Shown here: in pieces, positions 45,468 to 59,374 of the stretch
Numbering within the stretch: the stretch's first letter is position 1
Layout: each line of letters starts with the position of its first letter
DNA from: Gammaproteobacteria bacterium
GTDB lineage: Bacteria; Pseudomonadota; Gammaproteobacteria; Pseudomonadales; Porticoccaceae
Reading direction: 5' to 3'
DNA length: 64,000 nucleotides
Assembly (NCBI GenBank): GCA_003235325.1
Contig: QJWQ01000150.1
Location: 1-64,000 of the forward strand
Notes under the pieces: model-generated
Told to the model about the DNA's origin: nothing
Seen by the model: only the letters and a program-made list of their open reading frames with translations
The model's database searches: none
Translations under genes and position numbers: made by a program

Positions 45468-46862
45468 GTGAATCTCGTCTGGTTTCGCAATGATCTTCGC
45501 CTTCAGGACAATCCCGCCCTTCACGCGGCCGCCGATCGCGGACCCGTGCTGGCCTGCTACCTGTTGACGCCGGGGCAATGGCGTCGGCACCGGATGGCCG
45601 GCGCCAGGGTGGATTTTATTCTGCGCAGCCTTCGATATCTGAGTGAGGATCTGGCGAGGCTGAATATTCCCCTGGTAATCGAGCAGGCGAACTTTTTTGA
45701 CGATGTTGCCCCGGTCATACTGTCGCTGGCGAAGAGATTCAAGGTCAGCGCCGCGTTCTGGAATGAGGAATATCCCCTGGATGAACAGCGCCGGGATGAG
45801 GCGGTTGCTGACCTGTTGCTGGCCAGCGGGGTGGTTGTGAACCGGTTCCACGATCGGGTCATCGCCCCTCCGGGCACGGTGCTGAAGTCCGATGGCAGGC
45901 CCTACAGGGTATTCACGCCCTTCAAGCGTACCTGGTTGCAACTGGCGGATGCCGGCGTGCCGGACATACTTCCGGTCCCGGCCGCCCAGGCCGCCGTCCC
46001 GATACCATCATCCGCCATTCCGGAGACACCGGCCGGCTTTTCCACCGGTGTTGACCCGGGCCTTTGGCCCGCCGGGGAAAGAGAAGCCATGAAACGGTTG
46101 CGACTGTTTGGCCGTCTCAAGCTCAAATCCTACCCAGAGCAACGGGATATTCCGGCCGTTGCCGGCACGTCAATCTTGTCTCCTTACCTGGCGGTGGGCG
46201 CAGTTTCGCCCCAGCAATGCCTGCGCCTGGCCCTGCAGCACAGGCAGGAGGCCGGGGAGGGTGCTGCATGCTGGATCAATGAACTCGCCTGGCGGGATTT
46301 TTATCAGCACCTGGTAGTGGCCTTCCCCCAGATCTGTAAGGGTAGGCCATTCAAGACGGAAACGGCTCGTATTGCCTGGCGCGACGCCCCCCACGATTTT
46401 GAGCGCTGGTGCCAGGGCAATACCGGGGTGCCCATCGTCGATGCCGGTATGCGCCAGTTACTGGCCACTGGCTGGATGCACAACCGGGTGCGGATGATCA
46501 CTGCCATGTTCCTGAGCAAGAATTTGTTGATCGACTGGCGCCGGGGAGAAGCTTATTTCATGGAACACCTGATCGATGGTGATTTTGCTGCCAATAATGG
46601 CGGTTGGCAGTGGAGCGCCTCGACCGGTACCGATGCAGTGCCTTATTTTCGGGTTTTCAATCCCTTTAGTCAGGCTGCCCGATTTGATCCGGAAGGAATC
46701 TACATTCGACGCTTCGTGCCTGCTCTCAAGACGGTAGATACAGCGGACCTGCACGACCCATTGAGGCTGGAAAAGGTCCGGCCCAGCGGTTATCCTGAAG
46801 TCATTGTGGACCTGAAAAAATCAAGACTTGCCGCTATTGCTGCGTTCAAATCTGTTGGTTGA
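45468..46862 (+). CDS. phrB: Deoxyribodipyrimidine photolyase (class I CPD)
   Basis: Light-driven repair of cyclobutane pyrimidine dimers. 464 residues from GTG 45468, starting MNLVWFRNDLRLQDNPAL as class I photolyases do. The N-terminal antenna domain is followed by the FAD-binding helical domain with ELAWRDFYQHLV, TGWMHNRVRMITAMFLSKNLLIDWRRGE and WQWSASTGTDAVPYFRVFNP. A TATAAT at 45435-45440 may be its -10. Photolyase genes often belong to LitR/CarH regulons; here it is 4 kb upstream of the LitR operon with no shared operator seen. Confidence 0.95.
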   Translation: MNLVWFRNDLRLQDNPALHAAADRGPVLACYLLTPGQWRRHRMAGARVDFILRSLRYLSEDLARLNIPLVIEQANFFDDVAPVILSLAKRFKVSAAFWNEEYPLDEQRRDEAVADLLLASGVVVNRFHDRVIAPPGTVLKSDGRPYRVFTPFKRTWLQLADAGVPDILPVPAAQAAVPIPSSAIPETPAGFSTGVDPGLWPAGEREAMKRLRLFGRLKLKSYPEQRDIPAVAGTSILSPYLAVGAVSPQQCLRLALQHRQEAGEGAACWINELAWRDFYQHLVVAFPQICKGRPFKTETARIAWRDAPHDFERWCQGNTGVPIVDAGMRQLLATGWMHNRVRMITAMFLSKNLLIDWRRGEAYFMEHLIDGDFAANNGGWQWSASTGTDAVPYFRVFNPFSQAARFDPEGIYIRRFVPALKTVDTADLHDPLRLEKVRPSGYPEVIVDLKKSRLAAIAAFKSVG

Positions 46863-49407: not shown

Positions 49408-49838
49408 TTCCGACGTCACAAACCTCTCTCTACACCCTGACCAACTGAGAACCGCCCTCAGTCCCGGCTGTTTGAACTCGCTTCCCTGCTGCCAGGGACC
49501 GGCAAAACCGTTTGCGCTGCCTCCGGCGTCTTTACCCCTTCAACTAGACATGAGAAGCAGTTTCCCGGCTGTTTTATCACGTCTTCAACTTCCCTCCTCC
49601 TCCGATCGGCAAGCTCCCCTAGACACTGACTGATTCTGACCCGGAAGGGAACGTCTCAGGTTCGGTGGCGATTCCCGGCGAGAAGTATCGCGGCGAATTC
49701 CGGTGAAAGGAAGATCCGGTGAAAAGACATCCGGAGAATAGTGCGTCGGCATTTCAATTACGACGGTTCAATTATGACTTGAAAAAACTATGCATTAGGT
49801 GTACAAATAACTATACAAAACTGTATAGATTTAAGGGT
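49408..49838. other. Intergenic region rimO/LitR gene
   Basis: 431 bases. The first 270 hold nothing recognised. At 49700-49743 lie three imperfect copies of a 15-16 base unit (CCGGTGAAAGGAAGAT, CCGGTGAAAAGACAT, CCGGAGAATAG). The last 60 bases before the regulator contain a possible -35 TTGAAA (49779-49784) and the TGTACA/TATACA/TGTATAG motifs described at 49800-49828. Confidence 0.5.
49800..49828 (+). promoter_or_regulatory. Candidate LitR/CarH operator before its own gene
   Basis: TGTACA (49800-49805), then a perfect inverted repeat CTATACA (49811-49817) / TGTATAG (49822-49828) with 4 bases between arms. T(G/A)TACA-type motifs are, from memory, the kind bound by LitR/CarH-family MerR proteins. 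The site lies 10 bases before the chosen ATG and downstream of a weak -35 (TTGAAA 49779-49784), so autorepression is likely. Confidence 0.5.
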
Positions 49839-50792
49839 ATGTCCGCAAATACTCATTCAAATGATGTTCCTGAGGATCAGGAACTCTTTCCCATCAGCGT
49901 AGTGTCCGAGGCCACCGGCGTGCCGGCAGTGACACTTCGCGCCTGGGAACGGCGCTACGGATTTCTGAATCCACACCGCACCGAAACCGGTCGCAGACTT
50001 TACAGCGTCGAGCATATCGGCCTGATCAGGCGGGTGCTCGGGCTCCTGGATTCCGGTGTGTCGGTGGGCAGGGTGGAGGCCATTCTCAGGGGCGAAGGCC
50101 AGGGAACCACCGCAGTGGGTGAGACCGCCTGGGAACGTTACCGGGCCAATATGGCGGAGGCCATACAGAGTTTCGATGAACGCCGGCTGGATGGCATCTA
50201 CAACGAGGCACTGGCCTATTACTCCATTGAACTGGTCACCCGGGAGTTGATCATTCCCATACTGGGGCAACTTGGAGATACCTGGAACAACAAGACAACG
50301 GGCATTGCCGAGGAACATTTTTTCAGTCTGTATATTCGCAACAAACTGGGGTCCAGGTGGCATCACGGCGAGCCCCCCGCATCCGGACGCCGGGTTCTCG
50401 CCTGTTGTCTGCCGGGGGATCTGCACGAATACGGCCTGATGCTTTTTGCCCTCTCCGCCCGTTCCCGCGGGCTGGACCTGACCCTGCTGGGTGCAAACAT
50501 GCCACTGGAATCTCTGCCGGAAGTGGTTACCAGAATCCGCGCTGCCGCCGTCGTGCTGTCGTCGACGGTAGAGCCCGGATGGCAGGTCATCGAGCGTGAC
50601 ATCAGAAGCCTGGTCAGTGGCATGTCCGTACCGGTGTTTGTCGGTGGCGCAGGTGTGGCGCAGAAGTCGGCTGCTCTTGAAGCCGTGGGCGCCGTGCCCG
50701 TGGGCAGCCAGTTGTCAGCCGGAGTCGAGGCGATTTTCAGTTACCTGGCGGAGCATAAGGCCCGTCCGTCGAGAGGTGACAGTGGTCATTAA
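49839..50792 (+). CDS. MerR-family regulator with B12-binding domain (LitR/CarH type)
   Basis: 317 residues from ATG 49839; a longer frame from 49719 would put the operator inside the gene and adds no family sequence. The Shine-Dalgarno (AAGGG) is only 1 base from the ATG, so the start is not certain. N-terminal MerR helix-turn-helix about 18-85 (ISVVSEATGVPAVTLRAWERRYG). The B12 part carries Trp149 with Glu159-His160 (the W-x9-EH cap motif of CarH) and Asp194-x-His196-x-x-Gly199 (DLHEYG), where His ligates cobalt. It should bind adenosylcobalamin and release DNA in light. The residue after Trp149 is Asn, where TtCarH has His132. Overlaps the next gene by 11 bases. Confidence 0.9.
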   Translation: MSANTHSNDVPEDQELFPISVVSEATGVPAVTLRAWERRYGFLNPHRTETGRRLYSVEHIGLIRRVLGLLDSGVSVGRVEAILRGEGQGTTAVGETAWERYRANMAEAIQSFDERRLDGIYNEALAYYSIELVTRELIIPILGQLGDTWNNKTTGIAEEHFFSLYIRNKLGSRWHHGEPPASGRRVLACCLPGDLHEYGLMLFALSARSRGLDLTLLGANMPLESLPEVVTRIRAAAVVLSSTVEPGWQVIERDIRSLVSGMSVPVFVGGAGVAQKSAALEAVGAVPVGSQLSAGVEAIFSYLAEHKARPSRGDSGH

Positions 50793-51402
50793 TCTCTGGA
50801 ATTTTATCCAGTTCCAGGTCGGCTGGTTTGCCCTGGTGCTATCTGCCGCGGCAGGTGATCCCCGGTGGGGCGGTGGAGTTATGGTTGTCCTGGTGATCAT
50901 ACACCTGCTATTGGAGCGACAACCCCTTGTCGAGGGATCTTTGTTGCTGGTGATCGCCATTGTCGGCTGGTGCTGGGAGACCCTGGTCCAGACCACCGGC
51001 TGGTTACAGTTTGCCGGCTACGCCGGTGATGGTGTCGTGGCCTCATGGCTAGCGCCGCTGAAGCCGGCGCCGTGGTGGATGGCCCTGCTCTGGGTCAATT
51101 TCGCCACCACTCTTGATTACTCACTGGCCTGGCTAAGGTCCAGAAAGTGGCAGGCAGCCCTGGCCGGTGCGGTCGGCGGCCCGCTGGCCTTTGTCGCCGG
51201 CGAAGAACTGGGTGCGGTCAGATTGCTGCACCAGCCGGAAATTTTTGTCCTGCTGGCTATGGGCTGGCTGGCTATCACTCCCGCAGTCCTGACGCTGGCC
51301 GGATGGTTGAAATCCGGTGGTTCGGCTCAAAAGTCCATGCTTCCGGCCTGTAACCCGGCCAGGAGAAACAGCACGGGATCAATGAAAGGTGTCTGTTCAT
51401 GA
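50782..51402 (+). CDS. DUF2878 membrane protein in the LitR operon
   Basis: 206 residues from GTG 50782, chosen for GAGAGG 5 bases upstream and an 11-base overlap with the regulator gene. Seven or so membrane segments (starting WNFIQFQVGWFALVLSAAAG; later WWMALLWVNFATTLDYSLAWL). Found next to litR, DUF1295, FAD oxidoreductase and cfa genes in other bacteria. Function unknown; a role in membrane lipid change is inferred from context. Confidence 0.82.
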   Translation: MVINLWNFIQFQVGWFALVLSAAAGDPRWGGGVMVVLVIIHLLLERQPLVEGSLLLVIAIVGWCWETLVQTTGWLQFAGYAGDGVVASWLAPLKPAPWWMALLWVNFATTLDYSLAWLRSRKWQAALAGAVGGPLAFVAGEELGAVRLLHQPEIFVLLAMGWLAITPAVLTLAGWLKSGGSAQKSMLPACNPARRNSTGSMKGVCS

Positions 51403-52175
51403 CGATATTATTTCCGCCGTTGATCGCCAATGTGCTGCTGGTGACGGCCATCTGGCTCCTGAGTCTGTATCGACACAATGCCAGCCTGATAGATATGGCC
51501 TGGTCCCTGCTGTTCCTCCTGGCTCTGGGCATCTGGTTTGATCCGTCCAGGGCCGATGTCAGCCAGTGGCTGGTTCTGATACTGATCCTGTGCTGGGGGC
51601 TGCGGCTGCACCTGTACCTGCTCTGGCGCAACTGGGGACAACCGGAAGACCGGCGCTATGCCGCCATCCGGCAGAGAAACTCCCCGGGCTTCTGGTGGAA
51701 AAGTTATTTCATCGTTTTTCTGTTGCAGGCGTTTCTCGCCTGGATCGCCAGTTGGTCAATATTCGGCGCTGTTCAGTCCCAGGGGGTGAGCCTGCTGGTG
51801 ATCCTGGGCATCCTGCTCAGCCTGGCGGGGCTTCTTTTCGAGGCGGTTGGCGACTGGCAGTTGGCGGCTTTCAAGGCCAGGCCGGAAAACCAGGGTGCTG
51901 TGATGTGCCGGGGTCTGTGGCGTTACAGCCGCCACCCCAATTACTTTGGCGAGTGCTGCTTCTGGTGGGGTATCTATCTGGTCGCACTGGATGCGGGGGC
52001 CTGGTGGACACTGATATCGCCGCTGCTGATGACGGTGTTGCTGCTGCGGGTATCCGGCGTCAGTCTGCTGGAGAGCGATATGGCCGACCGACGACCGGAA
52101 TACGACCGATACCGACGCATTACACCGGCTTTTTTCCCGGGCAGACCCGCCCGTCCACAGGAGGGCAATCGATGA
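51399..52175 (+). CDS. DUF1295 membrane protein (steroid 5-alpha-reductase-like fold)
   Basis: 258 residues, ATG overlapping the previous stop by 4 bases. Membrane segments throughout; the C-terminal third has RPENQGAVMCRGLWRYSRHPNYFGECCFWWG, the conserved DUF1295/ICMT-like motif with RHPNYFGE. Such proteins are membrane oxidoreductases or methyltransferases of lipids. In this operon type it probably acts on fatty acids or isoprenoid-derived lipids together with the CFA-family enzyme. Confidence 0.88.
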   Translation: MTILFPPLIANVLLVTAIWLLSLYRHNASLIDMAWSLLFLLALGIWFDPSRADVSQWLVLILILCWGLRLHLYLLWRNWGQPEDRRYAAIRQRNSPGFWWKSYFIVFLLQAFLAWIASWSIFGAVQSQGVSLLVILGILLSLAGLLFEAVGDWQLAAFKARPENQGAVMCRGLWRYSRHPNYFGECCFWWGIYLVALDAGAWWTLISPLLMTVLLLRVSGVSLLESDMADRRPEYDRYRRITPAFFPGRPARPQEGNR

Positions 52176-52930
52176 ATCGTCTGCTCATGTTGTTACTCTG
52201 CCCGGTTCTGGTGCTGCTCAGTCAGCAGCTTTCCGCTGGCGCCGAATCCCGGGATTTCAGGGCGCCGGAGCCGGTCCAGACATCCCGTGATCTCGATGCT
52301 TCCGGGGATAACGCAGCGCGACAATCCCGGGAATGGCTGTTTCAGGTGGTCCTGGATGACAGACCGATCGGCACCCATCGTTTCCGGCTACTGCCGGATG
52401 GTGACAGATTCCGCGTTGTCAGTACGGCCAGCTACCAGGTCAAGTGGCTGTTTTTCACTGCTTACAGTTATCGTCATCGCGCCGAGGAGGTCTGGCAGGA
52501 TGGCTGCCTGAGATCGATTGAATCAACCACGCTGGACGGCGGTAAGTCCTATGAATTACATGGTGAACCTTCAGAGGGTGGTATGCGCCTGGTGGTCAAC
52601 GACAGCGTCAACGACTATCCCCAGAACTGTATTCGCTCGTTCGCTTACTGGGATTCTTCGCTGCTGGAACAGACCCGGTTACTCAATCCCCAGACCGGCG
52701 AACTGGAGCCGGTAGAGCTGTTGGATAAGAGCCCGGAACAACCCGCCTGGCTGCCGGTTACTGCGGCGACCAAACTGCGCCTCAGTACCCGGAAGATGCC
52801 CATCGATCTCTGGTACAGCCAGGATGGCCGCTGGTTGGCTCTGGAGGCCAGACTGGAAAGCGGTCAGGTTGTGCGCTACCTTCCACTGCCAACGACGGTC
52901 GATCTGCAGGAACTTGCCGGGGAATTCTGA
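52172..52930 (+). CDS. DUF6134 exported protein
   Basis: 252 residues from ATG 52172 (AGGAGGG 8 bases upstream; overlaps the previous stop by 4 bases). Signal peptide about 1-24 (LLMLLLCPVLVLLSQQLSAGA). The domain starts WLFQVVLDDRPIGTHRFRLLPDGDRFRVVSTASYQVKWLFFTAYSYRH, matching the DUF6134 pattern of beta strands, with late Trp and Tyr. Periplasmic. Function unknown; the family travels with LitR-CFA clusters. Confidence 0.8.
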   Translation: MNRLLMLLLCPVLVLLSQQLSAGAESRDFRAPEPVQTSRDLDASGDNAARQSREWLFQVVLDDRPIGTHRFRLLPDGDRFRVVSTASYQVKWLFFTAYSYRHRAEEVWQDGCLRSIESTTLDGGKSYELHGEPSEGGMRLVVNDSVNDYPQNCIRSFAYWDSSLLEQTRLLNPQTGELEPVELLDKSPEQPAWLPVTAATKLRLSTRKMPIDLWYSQDGRWLALEARLESGQVVRYLPLPTTVDLQELAGEF

Positions 52931-52931
52931 T

Positions 52932-54209
52932 ATGAAAATTGCCGTGATTGGTGCTGGTATCGCCGGCAATGTTGCCGCCTATCATCTGAGCCGTGATCAT
53001 GCAGTGACCGTTTTTGAGGCCAATCAGTATCTGGGCGGCCACAGCCATACCCACGATATTGACATTGGCGGTCAATCCTTGCAGGTGGATACCGGTTTCA
53101 TTGTCTTTAATGACCGGACCTACCCCAATTTCATTGCACTGCTTCGAGAACTGGGTGTGTGCTGGCAGCCTGCGGATATGAGCTTCAGCGTCCATTGTGA
53201 AAGGTCCGGATTTGAATATGCCGGCACCAACCTCAATACCCTGTTTGCCCAGCGCATCAACCTGTTGCGACCGTCATTTTATTTTTTCCTGCGGGATATT
53301 CTGCGTTTCAACCGGGAGGCCCAGGCTCTGCTCGACCGCCCTGATAACAGTATCAGCCTTGCCGATTTTCTCCGTGATTGCGGCTTTGGCCAACGCTTTA
53401 TCGACCAGTATATCCTGCCGATGGGCGCCGCTATCTGGTCAATGAATACTGAACAGATGCTGGCTTTTCCAGCAGTCTTCTTTCTGCGTTTTTTCTCCAA
53501 CCACGGTCTGCTTTCAGTCAATGACCGGCCACAGTGGTACGTGATTAAAGGCGGATCCAGGGCTTATGTCGAAAAACTGACTGCCCGGTATGCTCAGGGT
53601 GTCCACAAGGGCACGCCGGTAACGGCGGTCCGGCGCTTTGCTGACTTTGTCGAAGTCGTCTGTGCCGACTTCCGCCAGCGCTTTGACGCGGTATTTATGG
53701 CCTGTCACAGCGATCAGGCCCTGGCCCTGCTGGCCGACCCTTCCCTGGCGGAGACCGCCGTACTGAGTGCCATTCCCTACCAGAAAAACAATGCCATCCT
53801 GCACACGGACCAGGGATTGTTGCCCCGGCGGCGACGTGCCTGGTCCAGCTGGAATTACCGACTGCCGGTGAAAAAATCCGATGCCGCCACCGTGACCTAC
53901 CACATGAATCGGCTGCAATCCCTGACGTCACCGGTGGAGCTCTGTGTCACCCTCAACAGCCATGTGGATATCCCCGAGGCCAGCATTTTGAAGACCATGA
54001 GTTACTCCCATCCGGTCTTTACCCGCGAGGGCGTTGCAGCTCAGCAGCGCCAGGGAGAAATCAACGGCCAGCATCGTACTTTCTACTGTGGTGCCTACTG
54101 GCGCTACGGTTTTCACGAAGATGGTGTGGTCAGCGCCCTCGATGCCCTGCAACACTTCAATCAATGGTTGAACGTCAGTGAACAGCTGCCTGTACGTCGG
54201 GTGGGTTAA
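52932..54209 (+). CDS. FAD-dependent oxidoreductase (amine-oxidase fold)
   Basis: 425 residues. Starts MKIAVIGAGIAGNVAAYHL (FAD dinucleotide motif GxGxxG) and continues VFEANQYLGGHSHTHDI. The C-terminal half has YHMNRLQSL, SYSHPVF and YWRYGFHEDGVVSAL. This is the NAD(P)-binding amine oxidase-like family found in LitR and ChrR-type lipid operons. It probably oxidises or desaturates a fatty acyl chain on the membrane. Starts one base after the previous stop; overlaps the next gene by 32 bases. Confidence 0.85.
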   Translation: MKIAVIGAGIAGNVAAYHLSRDHAVTVFEANQYLGGHSHTHDIDIGGQSLQVDTGFIVFNDRTYPNFIALLRELGVCWQPADMSFSVHCERSGFEYAGTNLNTLFAQRINLLRPSFYFFLRDILRFNREAQALLDRPDNSISLADFLRDCGFGQRFIDQYILPMGAAIWSMNTEQMLAFPAVFFLRFFSNHGLLSVNDRPQWYVIKGGSRAYVEKLTARYAQGVHKGTPVTAVRRFADFVEVVCADFRQRFDAVFMACHSDQALALLADPSLAETAVLSAIPYQKNNAILHTDQGLLPRRRRAWSSWNYRLPVKKSDAATVTYHMNRLQSLTSPVELCVTLNSHVDIPEASILKTMSYSHPVFTREGVAAQQRQGEINGQHRTFYCGAYWRYGFHEDGVVSALDALQHFNQWLNVSEQLPVRRVG

Positions 54210-54984
54210 CCACCGCAGGTTGGTACCCAGGGAACACCGATTTCAATACCGGTTGTGTCTCGCCTACCTTGATCTTGAGGAAATTTCGTCTATTTTTGAA
54301 AAGATGCCCGGTTGTTCCAGTCGCTGGCCGGCGCCTTTCCGGTTTCGACGTCGAGATCACATGGGCGATGAAAATGTGCCCCTGGCGGATGCCGTTCGGT
54401 CCCGGGTACTAGAAGTGACGGGGAACTGTCCTGAAGGGCCGATCCGGCTGTTGACCGGCCTCGGCTTTCTCTGGCAGCGATTTAATCCGGTCAGCTTTTA
54501 TTACTGTTTTGACACTTCCGGAGAGCGATTGCACTATGTGGTGGCGGAGGTGACAAACACGCCCTGGGGAGAACAATACAGTTATGTGCTGGATGCCAGG
54601 CAACAGTTGCATGGTGACGGGAATTCCTCTGTCGAGGCTGGCGCACTTGTCGAGACTGCCGCACTACGGTTCGTCACCGAAAAGAGATTCCACGTGTCGC
54701 CATTCCTGCCCATGGACCTGGTCTATTACTGGAAAATTTTGCCTCCTGGAGAGCAACTGGCGGTGGCTATCACCGAAAGAAGAGCAGCAGTAACCGTATT
54801 CCATGCGGGCATGTCGCTGCAACGGCAACCGTTATCCGGTCTGATGCTGGCCAGGAATTTCATTCGTGTGCCAATGGTGACAATGAAAATTGTCGCCACC
54901 ATCTACTGGCAGGCATTTCGGCTCTGGTTGAAAGCCACACCCTTTTTTTCGCACCCTGCCACTGACACTGGAGAATCGAAGTGA
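54178..54984 (+). CDS. DUF1365 protein
   Basis: 268 residues from GTG 54178 inside the end of the oxidoreductase gene. Opens CLYVGWVNHRRLVPREHRFQYRLCLAYLDLEE and has GLGFLWQRFNPVSFYYCFD, VAEVTNTPWGEQYSYVLDARQQ and FHVSPFLPMDLVYYW. DUF1365 proteins are almost always encoded between an FAD oxidoreductase and a CFA-like enzyme, as here, and in Rhodobacter belong to the singlet-oxygen (ChrR) regulon. Function not established. Confidence 0.88.
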   Translation: MNSCLYVGWVNHRRLVPREHRFQYRLCLAYLDLEEISSIFEKMPGCSSRWPAPFRFRRRDHMGDENVPLADAVRSRVLEVTGNCPEGPIRLLTGLGFLWQRFNPVSFYYCFDTSGERLHYVVAEVTNTPWGEQYSYVLDARQQLHGDGNSSVEAGALVETAALRFVTEKRFHVSPFLPMDLVYYWKILPPGEQLAVAITERRAAVTVFHAGMSLQRQPLSGLMLARNFIRVPMVTMKIVATIYWQAFRLWLKATPFFSHPATDTGESK

Positions 54985-56258
54985 ATCTGACCAAACAATT
55001 CCGGTTGCTGGAAACCAATCCCTCTCTGCTGCAGGGAAGATTCCTGGAACGGCTTGCCCGAAAAGGCCTGCTGGCCAAGCTGGTCAATCTGAGCCGGGGC
55101 CAGTTGTTAATCATTGACGGCGAGCAGTCATGGCGATTTGGTGCGATCACCCCGGCTTTTCCTGTGCCGGTGGTGCTGGAAGTGCTGAATCCGGCCTTTT
55201 ATCCGGAAGTGGCCTTCGGTGGCACCATCGGCGCAGGGGAGTCCTACATGCTTGGCTACTGGCGCTGTAACAGTGTCACTGATCTGGTCCGGCTGATGGT
55301 TTGTGATCGGCAGGTGATGGAGGCCATGGAAGGGGGTATCGGACGATTTCTGGCGCCTCTTAACCAGCTGTTTCATCGCTGGCATCGAAATACCCTTAAC
55401 GGCAGCCGTCGCAACATATCGGCCCACTACGATCTCGGAAATGCCTTTTTCCAGCAGTTTCTGGATCCCACCATGATGTATTCCTGTGGGGTCTTTGAAG
55501 AACCGGCGCATACCATGGAGCAGGCGTCGTTCGCCAAGCTGGAACGGATTTGCCGCAAACTCGATCTGAAACCCGAGGATCATGTGCTGGAAATTGGTAG
55601 TGGCTGGGGTGGCTTTGCCATTTATGCCGCCGGGCACTATGGCTGCAGGGTGACTACCACTACCATTTCGGAGGCACAGTACCAACTGGCCCGGGAACGT
55701 GTCGCCAGCGCCGGACTCGGTGATCGTATCACCCTGTTGAACAGGGATTTTCGCGAGCTGGAAGGCCAGTTTGACAAGCTGGTATCTATTGAAATGATTG
55801 AGGCTGTCGGCGAACAGAATATCGGGGTTTTCTTCGAAATCTGTAATCAGCGGCTTAAACCCCAGGGCAAGATGTTATTGCAGGCAATTACCATCGCCGA
55901 TCAGCTCTACGATAGTTACCGCAAGTCGGTGGACTTTATACAACGCCATATCTTTCCCGGCGGCTTTCTGCCTTCACTGTCATCAATGGCGGTCTCCGTC
56001 GCCGAAAGAACCGATATGCGCCTGTTCCACCTGGAAGATATCGGACCTCACTACGCCACTACCCTGAGTCGCTGGCGCCAGGCCTTTTTTGATAACCTCG
56101 GGGAGATCAGGGCGATGAATTACCCGGCGGAATTTATCCGCATGTGGGAGTTCTATTTTTGTTACTGCGAGGGAGGCTTTATCGAACGGTCGCTGGGGAC
56201 CGTTCAGATGTTGCTGGTCAAATCCGGTGATCGCTCGGCACCGGTGCTTCGCGTCTAG
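54981..56258 (+). CDS. cfa: Cyclopropane-fatty-acid-synthase family methyltransferase
   Basis: 425 residues from GTG 54981. SAM-binding VLEIGSGWGGFAIYAA (near 205), and YSCGVFE with Cys169, VSIEMIEAVGEQN with Glu271, HYATTL with Tyr, and Cys in FCYCEGGF. These map onto E. coli Cfa Cys139, Glu239, Tyr317 and Cys354. Unlike E. coli, the residue equal to His266 (a bicarbonate ligand) is Gln301 in LLQAITI. This class may use the methyl group without making a cyclopropane ring (for example in furan fatty acid or methylated lipid synthesis). Last gene of the LitR operon. Confidence 0.87.
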   Translation: MNLTKQFRLLETNPSLLQGRFLERLARKGLLAKLVNLSRGQLLIIDGEQSWRFGAITPAFPVPVVLEVLNPAFYPEVAFGGTIGAGESYMLGYWRCNSVTDLVRLMVCDRQVMEAMEGGIGRFLAPLNQLFHRWHRNTLNGSRRNISAHYDLGNAFFQQFLDPTMMYSCGVFEEPAHTMEQASFAKLERICRKLDLKPEDHVLEIGSGWGGFAIYAAGHYGCRVTTTTISEAQYQLARERVASAGLGDRITLLNRDFRELEGQFDKLVSIEMIEAVGEQNIGVFFEICNQRLKPQGKMLLQAITIADQLYDSYRKSVDFIQRHIFPGGFLPSLSSMAVSVAERTDMRLFHLEDIGPHYATTLSRWRQAFFDNLGEIRAMNYPAEFIRMWEFYFCYCEGGFIERSLGTVQMLLVKSGDRSAPVLRV

Positions 56259-56520: not shown

Positions 56521-58674
56521 ATGTCCATAGAGGCCCTGAAAACCGACAACAACTCTCCCGCCGTCCACGTCCGGTTGCAACCCGCTTCAGAAGATATCTG
56601 GGACCGAAAATACCGCCTCAAGGACAAGCTGGGAAATCCGCTGGATGACAGTATCGACGGTACCTACCGTCGGGTTGCCAGGGCTCTGGCAGATGTCGAA
56701 CAGGAGGATCGCAAGGAAAAATGGTATCAGCGTTTTCTATGGGCCCTGCGCAACGGCGCGATTCCCGCCGGCAGGATCATTGCCAATGCCGGCGCGCGGG
56801 AGCACAAGCCGGCAACTTCCACCGTCAATTGCACGGTATCCGGAACCATCCCGGATTCCATGAAAGGCATCCTGGAGAAGAACCTGGAAGCGGGTTTGAC
56901 CCTGAAGGCTGGCTGCGGCATCGGTTTCGAGTTTTCCACTCTTCGACCCCGGGGGGCTTATGTCAGCGGTGCCGGTGCCCATACCTCCGGCCCTCTCTCC
57001 TTCATGGATATCTTCGACCGCATGTGTTTTACAGTGTCATCTGCCGGTGGCCGACGCGGCGCCCAGATGGGCACTTTTGACATCAATCATCCGGATGTGG
57101 TGGATTTCATACGGGCGAAACGCGTGGATGGCAGGCTCAGGCAATTCAATCTGTCACTGCTGATCACCGAAGAATTCATGGAAGCGGTCAAGGCCGATGC
57201 CGACTGGCCGCTCTCCTTTCCGCTCACAGCCAGGGAAGTGGAACTGGGCAATATCGACCTCACCGACGAATCCCGGGTCATCTGGCGCCAGTGCCCGCCG
57301 GGCGGCGATTATGTCACTGATAAGGTCGGCAGGGCGGCCTGCCGAATCTATCGGACCGTCCAGGCCGGCAAGCTCTGGAACGTGATCATGACCTCAACCT
57401 ACGATTTTGCCGAACCCGGCTTTATCCTGATCGACAAGGTTAATGAACTCAATAACAACTGGTTTTGCGAAACAATTCGGGCCACCAATCCCTGTGGTGA
57501 GCAGCCCCTGCCACCCTATGGCAGTTGCCTGCTGGGTTCGGTAAACCTGACACGTTTTGTGTGCAATCCCTTTACTGACAAGGCCAGCTTTGACTGGGCC
57601 AGCTACCGTGAGGTTGTGGCGGTCTTTACTCGCATGCTGGATAACGTTGTCGAGATCAATGGACTGCCCCTGGAGCAACAGCGTCGTGAAATCAGCTACA
57701 AGCGTCGTCACGGTATGGGATTTCTGGGACTGGGATCGGCCATGGTCATGTTGCGCCTTCGATACGGCAGCCGGGAATCCCTGGAATTTACCGAGCAGGT
57801 CAGCCGCGAGATGGCCCTGGCCGGCTGGCGTATCGGTGTCGAGCTGGCCGAGGAAAAGGGACCGGCTCCGATCATGGATGATGAATTTGAAGTCACTGAT
57901 GCCATGCTGCGCCAGCGCCCCGAGATGGTCGCTGATGGTTACAGGTCGGGTGACCGGGTCAAGGGCAGGGTGTTGCATGCCCGCTACAGCCGCTATATGC
58001 AGAAAATTGCTGACGCGGAGCCGGAGATCACTGAAGCCATTGCTAACACAGGCTGTCGTTTCAGCCACCATACTTCCGTAGCGCCCACGGGTACCATTGC
58101 CCTGTCATTGGCCAACAACGCCAGCAATGGCATAGAACCCAGTTTTGCCCATCACTATGCCAGGAATGTCATTCGTGAAGGCCGGAAATCAAAACAGAAG
58201 GTCGATGTTTTTTCCTACGAGCTGCTCGCCTACAGGGAGTTGATTAATTCCTCGGCCATGCCCAGCAGCGACAGGCCCGGTGAACAACTTCCCGATTACT
58301 TTGTCTCCAGCGAAACGATTCCTCCCCGTCAGCATGTCGATGTTCAGGCAGCAGCGCAGCGCTGGGTGGATTCCTCAATATCCAAAACCATCAACGTTCC
58401 CACTGATTTTCCGTTTGAAGAATTCGAAGATATTTATCTTTATGCTTACGAAAATGGTCTCAAGGGTTGTACTACTTTTCGCTTCAATCCCGAGGCGTTT
58501 CAGGGTGTGCTGGTCAAGGATAAAGACCTGGAGAATACGATTTACCAGTTTACCCTTGAGGACGGAACCGTCGTTGAACTCAAGGGCAATGAACAGGTGG
58601 AGTACGACGGTGAGGTGCACACGGCGGCCAATCTTTTTGATGCCCTGAAGGAAGGTTACTACGGAAAATTCTGA
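56521..58674 (+). CDS. nrdJa: Class II (B12-dependent) ribonucleotide reductase, large part
   Basis: Adenosylcobalamin-dependent reductase making deoxynucleotides with or without oxygen. 717 residues, close to P. aeruginosa NrdJa. The 10-stranded barrel opens FLWALRNGAIPAGRIIANAG. NPCGEQP places the conserved Cys at residue 325, and the first active-site Cys pair is in TVNCTVSG and following. Residues SVAPTGTIALSLANNASNGIEP are the substrate loop. The C-terminal reducing cysteines are not here but in the next gene. It lies just after the B12-sensing LitR operon. Confidence 0.95.
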   Translation: MSIEALKTDNNSPAVHVRLQPASEDIWDRKYRLKDKLGNPLDDSIDGTYRRVARALADVEQEDRKEKWYQRFLWALRNGAIPAGRIIANAGAREHKPATSTVNCTVSGTIPDSMKGILEKNLEAGLTLKAGCGIGFEFSTLRPRGAYVSGAGAHTSGPLSFMDIFDRMCFTVSSAGGRRGAQMGTFDINHPDVVDFIRAKRVDGRLRQFNLSLLITEEFMEAVKADADWPLSFPLTAREVELGNIDLTDESRVIWRQCPPGGDYVTDKVGRAACRIYRTVQAGKLWNVIMTSTYDFAEPGFILIDKVNELNNNWFCETIRATNPCGEQPLPPYGSCLLGSVNLTRFVCNPFTDKASFDWASYREVVAVFTRMLDNVVEINGLPLEQQRREISYKRRHGMGFLGLGSAMVMLRLRYGSRESLEFTEQVSREMALAGWRIGVELAEEKGPAPIMDDEFEVTDAMLRQRPEMVADGYRSGDRVKGRVLHARYSRYMQKIADAEPEITEAIANTGCRFSHHTSVAPTGTIALSLANNASNGIEPSFAHHYARNVIREGRKSKQKVDVFSYELLAYRELINSSAMPSSDRPGEQLPDYFVSSETIPPRQHVDVQAAAQRWVDSSISKTINVPTDFPFEEFEDIYLYAYENGLKGCTTFRFNPEAFQGVLVKDKDLENTIYQFTLEDGTVVELKGNEQVEYDGEVHTAANLFDALKEGYYGKF

Positions 58675-58678
58675 ACCT

Positions 58679-59374
58679 ATGACCACGAAGATCGAAAAAA
58701 GGATAGTCAGCTACAAGGTCAAGAATGAAGCGGAACCGGTAAAGACTTCTGCCGCGGCAGTACCGGGGGATCATCTCGAGCGGGCTGTCGAGCAGATGGA
58801 TGAAAACGTTACCCGCCCGGAGGTCCTTCACGGGTCGACCTACAAGATCAAGACCCCATTATCGGATCATGCCTTGTATATCACTATCAATGACATCGTC
58901 CTGAACGCCGGTACAGACCACGAGCAGCGCCGACCCTTTGAGGTCTTTATCAATTCCAAGAACATGGACCACTTTCAGTGGGTCGTCGCCTTGACGCGGG
59001 TTCTCTCTGCAGTATTTCGCAAGGGCGGGGACTGCACCTTTCTGGTGGAGGAAATGAAGGCGGTTTTTGACCCTAAAGGAGGCTATTTCAAAAAGGGTGG
59101 CAAGTTCATGCCATCACTGGTCGCAGAAATTGGCGACGTTCTGGAAACCCACATGAAGAGCATCGGCTTGCTGGGTGCACCGGAAATCAGCGAGCACCAG
59201 CAAAAAATCATGGATGAAAAGCGTGCTCAATACGAAAATCGCAAAAGTCGAGAAAATGCTGGCAACAGTTATCCGGAAGGCGCGCAACTCTGTACCAGGT
59301 GTATGACCAGGGCCATGATTCTCATGGACGGCTGCATGACCTGTCTCAGTTGTGGTGAGTCCAAGTGCGGTTAG
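58679..59374 (+). CDS. nrdJb: Class II ribonucleotide reductase, NrdJb (C-terminal part)
   Basis: 231 residues, the same length as P. aeruginosa NrdJb. A TSCPD domain (about 45-160, YITINDIVLNAGTDHEQRRPFEVFINSKN) is followed by a Cys-rich tail, LCTRCMTRAMILMDGCMTCLSCGESKCG, with seven Cys that provide the external reductant-exchange pair. Starts 4 bases after nrdJa; the two chains together equal a single-chain class II enzyme. The stop codon is the first of three TAGs created by a 15-bp tandem repeat. Confidence 0.92.
   Translation: MTTKIEKRIVSYKVKNEAEPVKTSAAAVPGDHLERAVEQMDENVTRPEVLHGSTYKIKTPLSDHALYITINDIVLNAGTDHEQRRPFEVFINSKNMDHFQWVVALTRVLSAVFRKGGDCTFLVEEMKAVFDPKGGYFKKGGKFMPSLVAEIGDVLETHMKSIGLLGAPEISEHQQKIMDEKRAQYENRKSRENAGNSYPEGAQLCTRCMTRAMILMDGCMTCLSCGESKCG

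Follow-up and report, generated by a model that had tools for sequence, protein, structure and literature searches.

A class I LitR heads a putative light-switched furan-fatty-acid operon in a gammaproteobacterial draft genome

The operon and its probable furan fatty acid genes

Here we describe an operon, putatively for light-switched furan fatty acid synthesis, on a 64,000-nucleotide stretch of DNA (the window; contig QJWQ01000150.1) that comes from a 3.26 Mb gammaproteobacterial draft genome, 94.5% complete. Seven genes on the + strand, at 49839-56258, follow one another in an unbroken chain and encode LitR, DUF2878, DUF1295, DUF6134, a flavin adenine dinucleotide (FAD) oxidoreductase, DUF1365 and a methyltransferase of the cyclopropane fatty acid (CFA) family. 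Each junction shows either an overlap of 4-32 bp or a gap of 1 bp, and in a Pfam search of the window proteins all of the families scored over the curated cut-offs. An earlier note on this DNA had given the same seven genes, families, coordinates and tight junctions, all of which were borne out. It had also placed a B12-binding MerR regulator at the head of the operon, and this is indeed a class I LitR with a MerR and two B12 domains.

49779..49807, + strand: weak promoter-like pair TTGAAA-N17-TACAAA, read from the sequence and putative, overlapping the first operator box
49800..49827, no strand assigned: predicted LitR operator TGTACA-N6-TATACA-N4-TGTATA, three boxes 12 and 10 bp apart, 11 bp 5' of the LitR ATG
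49839..50792, + strand: class I LitR/CarH, 317 aa (Pfam MerR, B12-binding_2 and B12-binding; alignment with Thermus CarH)
50782..51402, + strand: DUF2878, start GTG (Pfam 112 bits; two transmembrane stretches predicted from hydropathy)
51399..52175, + strand: DUF1295, polytopic membrane protein (Pfam 220 bits, plus Steroid_dh; six hydrophobic stretches)
52172..52930, + strand: DUF6134 (Pfam 134 bits; AlphaFold2 and Foldseek)
52932..54209, + strand: FAD oxidoreductase, UfaD-like fatty-acyl desaturase (Pfam FAD/Amino_oxidase; conserved with UfaO and CFA; assignment from PMC7380195)
54178..54984, + strand: DUF1365, UfaO-like furan-forming monooxygenase (Pfam 237 bits; UfaO is a DUF1365 protein, PMC7380195)
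54981..56258, + strand: CFA-family S-adenosylmethionine-dependent methyltransferase, likeliest UfaM, start GTG (CMAS 272 bits; motif SIEMIEAVG)

Furan fatty acids are lipids of the membrane and react with the singlet oxygen that forms in light. In Rhodobacter sphaeroides and Rhodopseudomonas palustris their synthesis begins with the methylation of cis-vaccenate by UfaM, continues with desaturation of the methylated chain by UfaD (RSP1091) and ends with UfaO (RSP1090, DUF1365), which inserts O2 to give the furan; in R. palustris three consecutive genes, RPA2569-2571, are sufficient for furan fatty acids (PMC7380195). All three types of component are present in the operon as a UfaD-type FAD enzyme, a DUF1365 UfaO and a CFA-family UfaM candidate. 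The statement of the earlier note that four of the six families behind the regulator have no biochemical role is therefore outdated, DUF1365 being UfaO and the FAD enzyme UfaD (PMC7380195).

Of 58 related genomes, 34 carry the three genes in this order, as do nearly all of another 80 named loci from several phyla. A chance grouping can be excluded, since over 100 loci share the UfaD-UfaO-CFA order and other Gamma- and Betaproteobacteria also have the block of LitR with DUF2878, DUF1295 and DUF6134; the earlier note had proposed such a comparison of gene order in relatives. A strong CMAS gene was present in all 34 relatives with DUF1365, against 4 of the 24 without it (Fisher p 6e-12). The CMAS of the trio is the only strong one in its own genome (274 bits; runner-up 29.5) so that, if the pathway runs, it must supply the first step.

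Aligned over 350 residues with the Escherichia coli CFA synthase, the window enzyme retains the Cys and Glu, the active-site His is replaced by Gln and the segment SVGMFEHVG reads SIEMIEAVG. S(I/V)EMIEAVG or a close variant is found in 108 of 111 trio enzymes, and the window enzyme scores below the NCBIfam CFA cut-offs. Plant cyclopropane synthases share some of the EMIEAVG/Gln-type features. Taken together the sequence evidence favours UfaM over a cyclopropane synthase, and furan fatty acids would be a much likelier product than cyclopropane ones. Of the lipids proposed in the earlier note the furan lead thus stands, while a cyclopropane product has become much less likely given the His to Gln change, the motif and the co-occurrence with DUF1365.

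The AlphaFold2 model of UfaO has a predicted local distance difference test score (pLDDT) of 89.9. A fold search with it gave only weak matches to barrels of the fatty-acid-binding/lipocalin type and nitrobindin-like barrels, none with E < 0.001, and a search of the PDB gave no sequence relative.

Regulator, predicted operator and the possible exchange of sensors

LitR aligns with Thermus CarH (E 1e-30), and the equivalents of W131, E141, H142 and the cobalt-ligating H177 are all kept. Four motifs, GxxW, EH, GxxH and GxxxP, have been proposed as a signature of the light response (PMC11796333) and can be read in LitR as GDTW at 146, EH at 159, GDLH at 193, which holds the axial His, and GANMP at 218. 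Against the NCBIfam CarH equivalog NF052513 it scores 134.7 bits, under the required 400 bits, and by sequence it is a class I LitR homologue outside the curated CarH equivalog. PF02607 was dropped as a class-wide LitR probe, its matches being dominated by MetH. A longer LitR frame begins at GTG 49719; since the operator would fall within this frame, ATG 49839 is the likely start. That the cell is able to supply the AdoB12 (adenosylcobalamin) chromophore is supported by a BtuR-type adenosyltransferase in the genome, a cobalamin riboswitch ahead of a TonB-dependent receptor on the same contig as the operon, and further B12-dependent proteins, namely NrdJ and a MetH-like B12 protein of MetH size.

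The predicted operator is the sole box triple in the window, which also holds no other box pairs (expected pairs 0.05; no triples in 50 order-1 shuffles), and it is the only box cluster of this kind preceding any LitR in the genome. Genome-wide, the scan for box pairs gave two further sites besides the operon, about the control count. One of these (C131:1469) precedes an outer-membrane-like gene; it was considered as a further LitR target and rejected as probably due to chance. A scan for the sigma-70 consensus did not list the promoter-like pair at LitR; its three matches, all weak, lie at other places in the region, one of them at 51382 before DUF1295, and are no more numerous than in shuffles. 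No LitR-type box cluster was found before the cyclobutane pyrimidine dimer (CPD) photolyase gene of the window (45468-46862), 3 kb upstream of LitR.

To place the operon among its relatives 114 UfaD loci were sorted by their nearest regulator, giving 13 with a class I LitR, 41 with another LitR, 17 with an extracytoplasmic function (ECF) sigma factor and ChrR, and 43 in which no regulator was seen, some of them interrupted by contig ends. The UfaD tree joins the window to L042, L064 and L065 (99), and this group belongs to a clade of 39 rows (95) that contains 13 of the 14 class I cases, the window included, together with 3 ChrR cases. On the Pseudomonas-Vibrio-Halomonas side of the tree SnoaL, SDR, RudS and photolyase accompany a class II LitR, or ChrR. 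This pattern of sequences suggests that the same lipid module may several times have come under one or another photo-oxidative sensor, be it a class I LitR, a class II LitR or ChrR.

The type of operator appears to follow the regulator. At L064, a locus of the same family with RimO upstream and the reductase downstream as in the window, an operator of the same layout, TGTACAAATACCTATACAGAATTGTATAG, stands at the equivalent position 5' of LitR, and at four other class I loci the tandem boxes are spaced exactly 11 bp. Eleven base pairs correspond to one helical turn, as in CarH operators. The published class II operator is T(G/A)TACA-N12-TGTA(C/T)A (PMC9758184). Sites with this N12 spacing served as a positive control and were found at 32 of the 41 loci whose LitR is without B12 motifs, 0 of 13 class I loci and 0 of 17 ChrR loci; as they are confined to class II loci among those searched, operator type tracks regulator class. 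Paired boxes 4-6 bp apart occur at 5 of the 13 class I loci, as well as in the window, and at 0 of the 17 ChrR loci. The window operator, with spacers of 6 and 4 bp, is without the class II N12 geometry. At L108 (4338-4488) a TGTACA box lies between LitR and a divergent photolyase/cryptochrome gene, and its position suggests that this LitR may also control that gene. A promoter pattern of the ECF/ChrR type failed to separate ChrR loci from the others and was uninformative.

No sigma-E/ChrR pair, with a sigma factor of the ECF11 type, was found over the cut-off in the window's genome, at its 94.5% completeness. The best match to ChrR is a cupin-only frame (G000:C1:2400-2663) with 34 bits against a cut-off of 124.5 and without the anti-sigma part. 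The loop that activates the ChrR response in R. sphaeroides includes furan lipids (PMC6852236); with no ChrR over the cut-off this role cannot apply here, unless ChrR lies in the missing 5%. The link to ChrR drawn in the earlier note consequently holds for those related furan operons that are under ChrR, but not for this genome, which is without a full ChrR system over the cut-off.

Accessory genes and neighbourhood

Amongst the 13 class I LitR loci DUF1295 is present in 12, DUF2878 and a second CMAS protein in 11 each, DUF6134 in 8, and a lipocalin and a fatty acid desaturase in 7 each. All of these are rare at class II loci except DUF2878, which is not. The second CMAS protein, of about 350 aa, is around 26% identical to the window UfaM candidate and lies between LitR and DUF2878 in L042 (3642-4691), L064 (4189-5283) and many others. 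FufM adds a second methyl group and has been given the same figure of 26% identity (PMC7380195), so that on sequence the second methyltransferase of the relatives is a candidate FufM, which would lead to dimethyl-furans. A profile search found it neither in the window nor in its genome; a lipocalin of the relatives' family is present elsewhere in the genome. Several Gamma- and Betaproteobacteria (L108 to L125) carry the order LitR-methyltransferase-DUF2878-DUF1295-DUF6134-lipocalin-desaturase-UfaD-UfaO-CFA, and the isolate Pseudomethylobacillus aquaticus H-5 (L111) is among the carriers of this full operon type.

DUF2878 is hydrophobic and probably a membrane protein. The literature found on it gives no biochemical function, and a literature search on DUF6134 gave none. 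DUF1295 has a profile match to 7c83 (E 1.4e-4) and a distant similarity to steroid 5-alpha- and delta-14-sterol reductases. DUF6134 begins with a hydrophobic helix and was modelled by AlphaFold2 with a pLDDT of 85.6; in Foldseek the DUF1849 structure 6ntr was the best match (E 1.6e-4), followed by VioE, LolA, RseB and LprG, and most of these best-matching open barrels bind lipids or lipoproteins. Two Cys residues are invariant among 14 homologues. The model predicts a periplasmic open beta-barrel of the EipB/LolA type, a candidate lipid binder. An independent survey covered 232 genomes; of the 17 strong DUF6134 genes in them, 13 lay in a DUF2878-DUF1295-DUF6134 block, which is therefore a unit of its own. 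That DUF6134 is exclusive to furan genes was rejected, only about half of its genes being within 10 kb of a DUF1365 gene.

The operon is preceded by RimO, with a 430-bp spacer, and followed at a distance of 262 bp by the gene of an adenosylcobalamin-dependent ribonucleotide reductase.

56521..58674, + strand: NrdJ, outside the operon (TIGR02504 562 bits, over the cut-off)

Within 56521-59374 NrdJ is accompanied by a separate TSCPD-domain protein similar to the NrdJ C-terminus. The reductase gene also stands 3' of the operon in L064 and L065.

Interpretation and comparison with known systems

We consider it likely, with a probability of about 0.7, that the operon is a light-switched furan-fatty-acid operon under an AdoB12-dependent LitR. 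By analogy with CarH and LitR, and from the position of the boxes, which would overlap the promoter of LitR itself, LitR loaded with AdoB12 would bind the three boxes at 49800-49827 in the dark and repress both itself and the whole operon. As in homologues, light would cleave the Co-C bond and LitR would be released, allowing transcription. UfaM, whose role is transferred by family, gene order and the completeness of the trio, would then methylate cis-vaccenoyl chains of membrane phospholipids. UfaD would introduce a second double bond and UfaO would add O2 to form the methyl-furan ring, following the roles shown in Rhodobacter and Rhodopseudomonas. The furan chains would presumably scavenge singlet oxygen in the lit membrane. 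The DUF2878 membrane protein, the reductase-like DUF1295 and DUF6134, as a LolA-like lipid carrier, might form an accessory arm in the envelope, which could perhaps move or repair modified or peroxidised lipids. The light response of the whole operon, the shielding of the membrane and the handling of lipids by these three proteins are all inferred.

Several observations weigh against this interpretation. The box spacing, 12 and 10 bp, departs from an exact 11, paired boxes are seen in just 6 of the 14 class I loci with the window included, and the promoter-like pair at LitR is weak. UfaM is no more than the most likely assignment of the CFA-family enzyme, made on family, motif and context, and the trio was placed beside the Pseudomonas modules from its gene order and the tree. 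Since ufaM of R. sphaeroides is not in one operon with ufaD and ufaO, position alone is no proof of function. The case for the accessory lipid-handling arm is weak, consisting of a predicted fold and gene proximity.

It is unlikely that cyclopropane fatty acids, or methyl-branched ones alone, are the product of the CFA-family enzyme, with UfaD and UfaO acting on another lipid and the operon giving general membrane protection without furan. Such a product would fit the family to which both Pfam and NCBIfam assign the enzyme, and the Cys and Glu that it shares with E. coli CFA synthase along the 350-residue alignment. However, it has Gln for the active-site His and the EMIEAVG-type motif of nearly all trio enzymes, CMAS of its type strictly co-occurs with DUF1365, and to set it aside would leave the genome without another CFA-family enzyme for the first step.

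The regulator raises two other questions. LitR might chiefly sense coenzyme availability or redox, light being incidental, so that the operon would answer AdoB12 supply or oxidative stress. CarH-type repression requires AdoB12, and low B12 would thus also derepress; the gene after the operon encodes a B12-dependent reductase, and a MerR-like protein of Vibrio cholerae has been proposed to respond to reactive oxygen species from blue light (PMC5241685). LitR nevertheless keeps every photoreceptor signature motif, its target genes are ones that counter photo-oxidative damage, and parallel operons either are switched on by light under the other LitR class (PMC9758184) or belong to the ChrR singlet-oxygen regulon (PMC6852236), which makes this reading rather improbable. 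It would seem very improbable that the boxes are only autoregulatory, or that the operon is constitutive or under another, unknown sigma factor. The LitR promoter does lack a strong sigma-70 match, and three weak matches, that at 51382 included, lie elsewhere, though no more than shuffles give. Against this, no second box cluster was found in the window, and LitR and DUF2878 overlap by 11 bp in a chain that continues to 56258.

Favouring, then, light-switched furan synthesis, we would add more tentatively that this is a recurring type of operon in Gamma- and Betaproteobacteria. In it furan synthesis might be under the direct command of an AdoB12 photoreceptor, and with it an arm for handling envelope lipids (DUF2878-DUF1295-DUF6134, in many cases joined by lipocalin, desaturase and FufM-like methyltransferase). 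Furan lipids would then be a light-anticipating shield outside any ChrR loop, and the three DUF proteins would traffic or repair these lipids; this seems possible at best. The earlier note was right to see a membrane-lipid operon under a class I LitR with a link to the ChrR regulon and a furan lead. What it took for a loose set of mostly unknown families is, on the assignments above, UfaD-UfaO-UfaM plus three unknowns.

The ChrR system of Rhodobacter controls the furan fatty acids and in turn requires them for its own activation (PMC6852236), so that protection and signalling are inseparable there. A full pathway with a B12 photoreceptor and without ChrR over the cut-off would make the protective role of furan lipids testable in isolation. 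DUF2878, DUF1295 and DUF6134, all three uncharacterised, also gain a concrete context from the operon, and the predicted fold of DUF6134 is like that of lipid carriers.

Control of a ufa cluster by light through a LitR-family repressor has already been shown in Pseudomonas, where ufaM is light-induced 25-33-fold under a class II LitR (PMC9758184), and the finding is less new than the earlier note suggested. A version directly under an AdoB12-LitR and with the DUF1295/DUF6134 block was not found in our literature search; the operon wires a known pathway in a new way and is not in itself a new pathway. The Pseudomonas pmlR1/pplR1 light operon combines a class II LitR and a short LOV protein with phrB, SDR, FAD oxidoreductase and ufaM. 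As in the window, a LitR-family repressor, the FAD oxidoreductase, a DUF1365-type gene and ufaM are in one cluster, but the window operon is without photolyase, RudS, SnoaL and SDR and has DUF1295 and DUF6134 in addition. The Pseudomonas LitR has no full B12 domain, needs the LOV protein and uses TGTACA-N12-TGTACA operators, whereas the window LitR is of the B12 type with boxes 10-12 bp apart. UfaD and UfaO are adjacent in R. sphaeroides (RSP1091-1087) and R. palustris (RPA2571-2568) as they are in the window, and R. palustris, again like the window, has ufaD, ufaO and ufaM in direct succession (PMC7380195). The R. sphaeroides furan operon, on the other hand, is under sigma-E/ChrR control (PMC6852236), with ufaM elsewhere and no LitR, while that of the window is headed by LitR. 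In V. cholerae (VC1118-1123) the CFA-like VC1122, comparable to the CFA-family gene here, is induced by blue light (PMC5241685) and the DUF2878 gene VC1123 belongs to the regulon of the MerR-family PhrR (PMC12971978); the blue-light response there, however, has been traced to ChrR and a MerR-like protein, VCA0056, that is encoded elsewhere (PMC5241685). EipB (DUF1849), LolA and RseB have the predicted fold in common with DUF6134, though with 7-11% identity in structural alignments and a TM-score of only 0.54 to 6ntr. Thermus CarH and the class I LitR proteins have the same domain order as the window LitR and all of its key AdoB12 residues. The known targets of CarH and LitR are mainly carotenoid genes, whereas the target here would be lipid modification.

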